DNA of 64,000 bases from an uncultured Carboxylicivirga sp. (GTDB taxonomy: Bacteria > Bacteroidota > Bacteroidia > Bacteroidales > Marinilabiliaceae), in the NCBI GenBank assembly GCA_947503525.1, contig CANNEA010000003.1, forward strand, positions 930,001 through 994,000. Direction: 5' to 3'. The position numbers and the translations under genes were made by a program. Under the pieces are notes generated by a model that was given only the letters and a program-made list of their open reading frames with translations, was not told where the DNA came from and ran no database searches. Shown here in pieces: positions 6,805-47,958 of this stretch. Within the stretch, counting starts at the first letter, position 1. Every line of letters starts with the position of its first letter.

Positions 6805-6893
6805 CTGCAAATGTAATCTTTTTTTTTTATCTGCGAAGAATGTATAAAGTAATTTACACTTTTATGCAATTAACTTAAAGCAGCAGACTTAAC

Positions 6894-26738: not shown

Positions 26739-28474
26739 TTACTCAAGGTCGAGGCCAAACTCTTGCTTGAATTTAATCAGGTCCGGATTCTTCTCTGCCA
26801 TCAATTTGAACTTATCTACCACGGTAAAGGCCTTTTTAGGACCATCTTGTTCGCCAAGAGATATTTCAAACTCCAGCGTAAGTCGGGCATTTTTGAGGGA
26901 GCGTTTTAAATACCCCGACATGGCTGATTTCTCTTTAAGTAATTCTGTCTCTTGTATTTTATTTCGAAGTTTAATTAAAAGCTTTTTCTCACCAACCAAT
27001 ACCGGTTTGTGGTTATCTAAAATACTGTATAAACGAGGATTACTTTGTTGGAATGTCATGCTGTATTTTCTCCAGGATTCATCAAGGCCTTCTTGAGAAA
27101 ATGATTCATTCCACGACATATCAATTGGCTCTTCAACGACTTCAACCTTATCTGAACTTTTAGTTGAAGTAGAAGGCACCTGTACTTTCTGAGCTAGATT
27201 TTTAAGCGAGAAAGACTTTAATCCCACATTATTGCCTGTTCCTTTATTTACCGGAGGAGAACTTGGTATTTTTGTTGTGGTAACAGGTGTTTTAGAAGGT
27301 GACTTATCAACTTTAGGAGCCTTAGGTTTTGGCTTACCAACCGTAATAATTGGTATTTTACCTGACGGTTCTAGTTTTTTTTTTCAGTGACTATACGAGC
27401 CAAACGAATTAGAGCAAATTCAATATGCAAGCGTTTATTTTTCGCCGCCCTATACTGTTGCTCACTTTCATTAATAATTTTAAGTGCCTCATATAAGAAA
27501 TCAACTGAACAAGCGGCAGCCTGTTTCAGGTACTTTTCTTTTGTACTTTGCCCTACTTCTAACAAACCTGCAGTAGCCTGATCGCGACACATTAATAAAT
27601 CACGAGCATGACTATTTAAGCCTGCCATAAAGTGTTGCGCATCGAAGCCTTTGAGCAAGATGTCATTAAAAATCAGCAAACCTTGCTTATAATCTTCAGC
27701 TAAAAAAGCATCTACTAATCTAAAGTAATAGTCGTAATCCAATACATTAAGATTCTCTATTACTTGCTTGTATGTAATCTCTTTACCTGAGAAGGCAACT
27801 ATCTGATCAAAGATGGACAAGGCATCACGCATAGCTCCATCAGCCTTTTGTGCAACAACAGCCAGCCCTTCCTCTTCAACTTGAACACCTTCACTCTCTG
27901 CCACATATTTTAAATGCCCAACCGCATCACCAATAGTAATTCGATTGAAATCAAAAATCTGACAACGAGATAAAATGGTTGGAAGAATCTTGTGTTTTTC
28001 AGTAGTAGCTAAAACAAATATGGCATGCCTTGGAGGCTCCTCCAAAGTTTTCAGAAAAGCATTAAATGCCGCCTGTGATAACATGTGGACCTCGTCAATG
28101 ATATATACCGAATACGATCCCAATTGAGGCGGAACACGTACTTTGTCAATCAAACTACGAATATCATCCACCGAGTTATTGCTCGCCGCATCCAACTCAT
28201 GAATATTGTATGAACGATTCTCGTTAAACGATTCGCACGATTCACAGGTATTGCACGCTTCAAAATCCTCACTTACATTAGAACAATTGATGGTCTTGGC
28301 AAAAATACGAGCACATGTTGTTTTACCTACGCCTCGAGAACCACAAAAGAGATAGGCATGCGCCAAATGATTACTCTTAATGGCATTCTTAAGCGTGGTA
28401 GTAATATTACCCTGCCCCACAACCGACTTAAAAGTAGCTGGTCTGTATTTCCTTGCCGAAACAATATATTCCAT
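26739..28474 (-). CDS. dnaX: DNA polymerase III tau subunit, reached by -1 recoding at A10
   Basis: DnaX is the clamp-loader ATPase of the replicative polymerase. The 0 frame from 28474 ends at TAG 27373-27371 just after a run of ten A. If one A is re-read or added, the frame continues for 211 codons to the stop at 26739-26741, giving a tau of about 578 residues, the usual Bacteroidota length. The joined tail begins KLEPSGKIPIITVGKPK and includes a proline- and lysine-rich linker, then SFSLKNLAQKVQ and a C-terminal domain (WRKYSMTFQQ, FELMAEKNP-like end). Domain I shows Walker A GSRGVGKT (45-52), zinc cysteines C64, C74, C77, C80, and DEVH (127-130). An assembly error in the A run is the main alternative. 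Confidence 0.75.
27339..27384 (-). other. Candidate dnaX recoding signal: A10 slippery run plus stem-loop
   Basis: On the minus strand A10 (27384-27375) is read GAA AAA AAA AAC TAG. Four bases after the run a stem begins: AACCGT (27370-27365) pairs with ACGGTT (27344-27339), and inside it GGTA (27362-27359) pairs with TACC (27355-27352). A slippery A run with a hairpin 4 to 6 bases downstream is the arrangement of programmed -1 frameshift sites, as in E. coli dnaX; an A run alone can also cause transcriptional slippage, as in Thermus dnaX. Either would restore the tau frame. Confidence 0.65.
27371..28474 (-). CDS. dnaX: DnaX gamma form (zero-frame product)
   Basis: The unshifted frame makes 367 residues ending RIVTEKKN, which covers domains I-III: the AAA+ ATPase core, zinc module and collar. 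This is what a clamp-loader gamma subunit needs, while the missing tail would bind the polymerase and helicase in tau. The stop follows the slippery run directly, so gamma is essentially the tau protein cut at the end of domain III. It starts 104 bases after the unknown secreted gene at 28579. Confidence 0.85.
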   Translation of the reverse strand: MEYIVSARKYRPATFKSVVGQGNITTTLKNAIKSNHLAHAYLFCGSRGVGKTTCARIFAKTINCSNVSEDFEACNTCESCESFNENRSYNIHELDAASNNSVDDIRSLIDKVRVPPQLGSYSVYIIDEVHMLSQAAFNAFLKTLEEPPRHAIFVLATTEKHKILPTILSRCQIFDFNRITIGDAVGHLKYVAESEGVQVEEEGLAVVAQKADGAMRDALSIFDQIVAFSGKEITYKQVIENLNVLDYDYYFRLVDAFLAEDYKQGLLIFNDILLKGFDAQHFMAGLNSHARDLLMCRDQATAGLLEVGQSTKEKYLKQAAACSVDFLYEALKIINESEQQYRAAKNKRLHIEFALIRLARIVTEKKN

Positions 28475-47873: not shown

Positions 47874-47958
47874 TTCTATGGCTGTTCGTTGATTCACTTT
47901 TTTTTTTAGATGCGTAAAGATGCGAAAAAACTTTTATAATACGGCTTCTTCTATTTTA

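Follow-up and report, generated by a model that had tools for sequence, protein, structure and literature searches.

The question raised by this locus is how one dnaX gene, whose reading frame ends at a stop codon directly behind ten consecutive A residues, could supply both gamma and tau. The gene lies on the minus strand of the window, the whole 64,000-nucleotide stretch of DNA that was analysed (G000:C3:930001-994000, from a 6.56-Mb Bacteroidota genome), and its junction reads ...ATA GTC ACT GAA AAA AAA AAC TAG. The features discussed below are as follows.

27371..28474, minus strand: zero-frame ORF of dnaX, gamma, 367 aa, with AAA+ domains and domain III (ORF call, Pfam, NCBIfam)
27375..27384, minus strand: A10, the putative slippage run, codons 364-367 (GAA AAA AAA AAC); T10 on the plus strand
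27371-27373, minus strand: TAG, stop codon of gamma, directly behind A10
26739..27374, minus strand: tau tail, in the -1 frame that +A transcripts would reach; 211 codons and a stop, for a tau of 578 aa
27358..27360, minus strand: TAA closing the third frame (one A fewer), after 371 codons
27339..27370, minus strand: stem-loop of the first-pass annotation, outer arms 27365-27370 with 27339-27344 and inner arms 27359-27362 with 27352-27355; probably no part of the signal

The gamma part matches Pfam DNA_pol3_delta2, DNAX_ATPase_lid and DNA_pol3_gamma3, that is, a clamp-loader ATPase with domain III. Against NCBIfam PRK14971 (gamma/tau, 614 positions), the 367-aa part matches positions 3-366 and the tail positions 453-613 (E 7.8e-22), and a Pfam search of the tau tail returned no match. 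A tau-tail profile built from 173 uninterrupted tau tails, and blind to the A run, detected the tail of the window in the -1 frame (E 9e-39). The nearest named relative that we found is the MAG Saccharicrinis sp. UBA6048 (L003), with 92% identity to the gamma part; its first 900 nt are the same as those of locus L087 of genus member G008, and Saccharicrinis is placed in Marinilabiliaceae by NCBI. The first-pass annotation had placed the A10, the immediate zero-frame stop, the 211-codon -1 frame and the 578-aa tau correctly, and its proposal that gamma and tau, the latter of standard length, arise by recoding at A10 is supported.

Transcriptional slippage at A10 is very probably the main way in which the single dnaX gene of the window supplies both gamma and tau. 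RNA polymerase would slip on the run and produce mRNAs with ten A's, with extra A's and with fewer A's. Those with A10 (and 10+3n) would end after 367 codons and give gamma; those with A11 (and A8 or A14) would join the -1 frame, where one added A opens the further 211 codons, and give the 578-aa tau; and those with A9 (and A12), ending after about 371 codons, would yield a further protein the size of gamma. Translation would follow the standard rules throughout. Gamma and tau would be made in some ratio, and both would presumably be used by the clamp loader.

The A run in dnaX genes of Bacteroidia

A run of ten A's is not rare as such in the window, whose minus strand holds three against 4.7 expected from shuffles. 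The other two, at 6819-6828 and 47898-47907 on the minus strand, lie outside any ORF of at least 80 aa. We collected 357 dnaX loci and dropped 6 whose first 900 nt repeat another locus; in the remaining 351 genes (508 kb scanned, zero-frame part only), 224 runs of at least nine A's were located at codons 345-400 and 5 elsewhere. The non-random feature is the position of the run in dnaX, not A10 as such.

For a count with less bias we used a draw across the phylum, in which 382 of 395 genomes had a dnaX match, and all 97 genomes of class Bacteroidia except the window's own were read; the draw is uneven, with 40 of the 97 from a single family (f31). A run of A9-A12 at the end of domain III was present in 90 of the 97 genomes and in 11 of 12 families, its length being A9 in 11, A10 in 69, A11 in 9 and A12 in one. 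The seven class genomes lacking a run of at least nine are all tau-open; among them, L136 and L168 show a run of A7 at this position. In all 13 members of the window's genus that were read, the window included, the run is A10, its codon position is identical and tau lies in the +A frame (a fourteenth member, G013, has only a dnaX fragment and stands outside the 13). A search of 71 genomes of f1, the window's family, gave 65 with a match, and 63 loci were read, G513 (split match) and G536 being left out. A10 is present in 52 of these loci and A11 in one; in another the contig ends within the run, and the nine of genus g3 lack it. Elsewhere in the order, 12 of 26 loci from other families have the run, and among 20 genomes from outside the class, one per family, A9 or A10 occurs in four, all tau-open, and in none of the remaining 16.

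Homopolymers are error-prone, and the window's frame break could in principle come from a mistake in assembly or from a gene in decay, with tau continuous over a true run of A11 (or A9). Such a reading is scarcely credible beside 52 A10 loci and a single A11 in f1 and beside the tail calls of the profile, which assigned the tail to the -1 frame in each of the 108 +A genes; sequencing error was ruled out by the A10 found across the genus and the f1 loci.

A further control bears on the count itself. When the 40 codons around the site were shuffled synonymously with the protein fixed, runs of at least nine A's appeared in 43.5 of 90 cases, so that by this control the excess of such runs is only twofold, which weakens the count, with the caveat that the lysines held fixed are themselves encoded by the run. 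The run is kept despite a GC content of at least 50% in 10 of the 90 run-bearing genes.

Direction of the shift and closure of the frames

Whether the ribosome or RNA polymerase does the slipping had been left open by the first-pass annotation, rightly, and run length, the occurrence of both directions and the closure of the frames point to transcriptional slippage. In the 90 run-bearing class genomes the tau frame is the zero frame in 45, the +A frame in 43 and the -A frame in 2. Further loci of the order were chosen for a short frame (16 picked from the matches listed, 15 readable), and 15 have the run, 8 of them +A and 7 -A. A FastTree gene tree, on which 115 tau-open, 108 +A and 5 -A genes with a run were resolved (228 in all), requires no fewer than 24 changes of the default frame, compared with at least 73 in 50 label shuffles. 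Within genus g11 of the window's family, where all loci have A10, L097 and L287 are tau-open and L289 and L291 gamma-first. The profile located the tail in the expected frame in every +A gene of the tree, as given above, and in 5 of 5 -A genes. Frames other than that of tau close after a median of 2 codons versus 9 at control positions (p 9e-35), and in 84 of 90 genes neither runs past 10 codons, versus 28% at control positions. An early stop and a run shorter than nine were never combined in one gene of the draw.

These observations favour RNA polymerase on several counts. Seven A's suffice for a ribosomal heptamer, yet the early-stop genes all have at least nine; -A genes exist, and a -1 ribosomal shift cannot serve them; both non-tau frames are closed, as in the Thermus arrangement; and the default frame flips while the run stays. 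According to the available text of Antonov et al. (PMC3711429), an unconserved direction of the shift is a sign of transcriptional realignment.

The same letters would also suit a ribosome. The A10 of the window contains A_AAA_AAA and A_AAA_AAC in frame, and since every run of at least nine A's includes an in-frame A_AAA_AAA, ribosomes may slip there as well. A -1 ribosomal frameshift on these heptamers, perhaps aided by a stem, would make tau from faithful transcripts; it fits the position of the window's tau in the -1 frame, and the sister genus g3 of the same family has A_AAA_AAG, an adjoining stop and a covarying stem (see below). We nevertheless consider it quite unlikely for the window, whose stem is not conserved, given that SD-like words 5-18 nt upstream of the run are not above background, that -A genes and genes with tau in the zero frame carry the same A10, and that both other frames are closed. 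In a partial survey of mixed tRNAs, those of G000 among the 25 loci scanned gave two Lys(ttt) and no Lys(ctt). An arrangement in which RNA polymerase and the ribosome both slip, the ratio of products being set by both, would refine transcriptional slippage and overlaps with it. Homopolymeric A is slippery to both machines, as the available text of PMC3711429 has it, but the A10 genes give no positive sign of a ribosomal share and slippage by RNA polymerase alone meets the data, which leaves the combination as a somewhat improbable, secondary possibility.

The tail could also be a protein of its own, made beside gamma from the GTG at 27227 or by reinitiation, and a GTG-started ORF of 162 aa does lie at 26739-27227. 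This start does not adjoin the stop, however, and half of the run-bearing class genomes (45/90) have a tail fused in the zero frame, making two separate proteins very improbable; a separate tau-tail gene was rejected on the basis of these zero-frame fusions and the frame calls of the profile.

A few loci depart from the general pattern. L106 (G025) has A10 with the tail in the zero frame behind a TAA, and no single slip joins the tail; its genus mate L338 is ordinary, and L106 probably has a second indel or a sequence error. L071, the dnaX locus of an uncultured Bacteroidales MAG, is interrupted by a single in-frame TAG at the place where others would shift, and its tau tail continues in the same frame, which would reflect readthrough or an error. 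No significant tail call was obtained for L308, L016, L018, L025, L030, L095, L340, L346 and L348, several of which are cut by contig ends.

Downstream structure and signals other than the A run

The first-pass annotation had counted the stem-loop at 27339-27370 as part of the signal. The stem can be drawn with the arms listed above, but folding of the window RNA showed no unusual stability, with z -0.57 over 101 nt and z -1.7 over the 60 nt directly 3' of the run. Across the genus (13 members), 69% of the cells of the stem hold standard pairs and three pairs are changed on both sides, with at most 55% of cells paired in slid versions, the stem itself having been drawn from one of these sequences. 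A variant stem of some genus members has 75% of cells paired and one pair changed on both sides. For the 13 members RNAalifold chose a different, weak 5-pair hairpin (-2.67 kcal/mol) that 1 of 100 column shuffles reached, and the 60 nt 3' of the run gave z from -0.86 to -3.11 across all 13; a weak genus-level structure may lie downstream of A10. Four A10 groups, g6 (11), g21 (4), g5 (3) and g54 of family f31 (18 sequences), showed no common structure (alifold 0.0, a value that poorly alignable linkers also give). The mean single 100-nt folds of g6 and g5 (-25.5 and -26.9 kcal/mol) are not much weaker than that of g3 (-29.4 kcal/mol). The stem-loop was rejected as a general part of the signal, its pairing not being kept in the genus and none being common to the four groups. 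The comparison with relatives that the annotation had called for upheld the run, A10 in 13/13 genus members and A9-A12 in 90/97 of the class, and not the stem.

An SD-like element was not found 5' of the window's run. Across the run-bearing genes, SD-like words lie 5-18 nt upstream of the run in 10 of 90 versus a background of 7.5%, and at most 8 nt before it in 48 of 90 versus 4.2% in control windows, the latter mainly in family f31 (32/40). In the f31 dnaX genes of the draw (among L174-L220), GGAG adjoins the A run in 29 of 40 and is one base off in 2. The words abutting the f31 runs may be protein-driven (Met-Glu-Lys).

In the sister genus g3 of the window's family, the A10 is absent from all nine loci (L098, L100, L284-L286, L288, L290, L339, L341). 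Eight of the junctions read AGA AAA AAG followed by TAG or TAA, and one reads GAA AAA AAG TAA. A_AAA_AAG is in frame, gamma occupies the zero frame, and the tau tail of 209-213 codons lies in the -1 frame, with which the profile agrees in 9/9. A stem of 9 bp with a further inner 4 bp begins 10 nt after the heptamer; 94% of its cells are paired, against at most 44% in slid versions, and compensating changes occur in 11 cells at 5 pairs. Of 500 shuffles, none reached the paired share or the number of compensating cells, and 62 reached five such pairs. The alifold energy was -21.4 for 100 nt, compared with a mean of -1.1 for column shuffles, and 0.0 for 60 nt, which is too short for the stem. Genus g3 has apparently swapped the A run for -1 ribosomal frameshifting. 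The window's family resembles a natural experiment, with A10 and no shared structure in most genera and a heptamer with structure in one.

A different signal was encountered in the Bacteroidales family f2, for which 59 genomes were searched, 55 had a dnaX match and 51 loci were read. In 41 of the 51 loci the zero frame is short, there is no A run longer than 8 near the site, and a 14-nt motif, AGGCAATCRYRRGR, is present. The motif loci are listed here.

f2 motif loci (41): L253-L264, L266, L267, L270-L275, L279-L281, L318-L334, L163

The motif, AGG CAA TCR YRR GR, is read in the zero frame and precedes the stop by 3-10 codons, with 40 exact copies and one that has a single change; its positions 1-6, 8 and 13 are invariant in 41/41, and an added final G is found in only 33/41. 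The profile placed the tau tail of all 41 in the +1 frame. The remaining 10 of the 51 loci are tau-open and have no motif, and three of them retain A9 or A10. The strict 15-nt form, AGGCAATCRCRGGAG, occurs in 33 of the 59 f2 genomes, once in each except G496 (two), and always 28-70 nt behind the dnaX match, while a reversed control pattern is absent from all 59. Of the 393 genomes in the order sample, 8 have the strict form; half of these belong to f2, and the four matches in other families (L358-L361) lie outside dnaX; the reversed control also matches there, in 2 of 393 genomes, so the matches outside dnaX are chance.

In the +1 frame the nearest stop lies one codon upstream of the motif, and in the zero frame the nearest lies three codons after the start of its AGG; the shift is confined to AGG-CAA-UCR if all loci use the same site. 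An ATG lies near by in the +1 frame in only 10 of 41 loci, with GTG or TTG in others, and a separate f2 tail with its own ATG is therefore unlikely for most. No common RNA structure was found around the motif (alifold 0.0). From these sequences we propose a +1 ribosomal shift at AGG-C, the motif being a candidate new recoding signal. A tRNA cause was rejected: in one f2 genome, G508, whose 43 tRNA matches were scanned with ARAGORN, tRNA-Arg(CCT) is present, and its anticodon loop, the one loop inspected among these tRNAs, has the ordinary 7 bases. The GYN-AGG-C core of the motif resembles yeast Ty-type +1 sites, and we know of no such mechanism from bacteria. Should the motif work by +1 recoding, it would represent a frameshift signal in bacteria that has no RNA structure and no fixed stop codon.

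Comparison with known dnaX systems

A two-ORF dnaX was reported in 2013 for 17 genes of 12 genera, nine of them with A10, and transcriptional realignment was proposed (PMC3711429); the only organisms named in the main text, as available, are three Chlorobi whose runs have 9, 8 and 7 A's. The gene of the window belongs to this known two-ORF A10 type. In the available text, the genes of Antonov et al. share with it the two overlapping ORFs, the -1 relation at the DNA level, the poly-A at the junction and tau in the second frame, but come without a phylum-wide survey, a frame reversal or a swap to other signals. The frame reversal, the run in tau-open class genes, the g3 swap and the f2 motif do not figure in the part of PMC3711429 that was available. 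No second report of a two-ORF dnaX with A10, besides PMC3711429, and none of the g3 and f2 swaps was found in the literature searched, a body that most subscription papers fall outside. The available text of PMC3711429 also gives yields for E. coli cassettes of another gene, with 63% frameshift product for 11 A's, 40% for 9 and 10% for 7; given these yields at 9-11 A's, a substantial tau yield from A10 is plausible.

Thermus thermophilus dnaX, as described in the available parts of PMC1088944 and PMC5009743, slips at a run of 9 A's and shares with the window the late A run, the stops in both other frames and the production of gamma and tau from one gene. The two differ in that Thermus has A9 with tau in the zero frame and slippage leading to gamma, whereas the window has A10 with gamma in the zero frame and slippage that would lead to tau. 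With gamma in its zero frame, the gene of the window would work in a Thermus-like way but is filed under the two-ORF type of 2013. In Blochmannia dnaX, a poly-A frameshift lies downstream of the gamma/tau site (PMC3017870, available text). What gamma does has been a matter of long debate (PMC5009743, available text).

The A run of the window, kept in most relatives of the class, is a widespread version of a device already known, though some relatives have apparently exchanged it for other, partly undescribed signals. Selection seems to favour both products in much of the class, through whatever recoding route is available and in either order. On balance we lean towards the view that Bacteroidia exchange the means of producing gamma and tau at one point of dnaX: an A9-A12 run that flips the default at least 24 times, A_AAA_AAG with a covarying stem in g3, and in f2 a linear AGG CAA UCR YRR GR directing a +1 shift.

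Escherichia coli dnaX uses a -1 ribosomal frameshift with A_AAA_AAG, an SD-like element and a stem-loop. With it the window shares the gene and both kinds of product, but it has neither the SD-like element nor a conserved stem. Genus g3 comes closer, having both heptamer and stem in common with E. coli, and differs in that gamma, not tau, occupies the zero frame.
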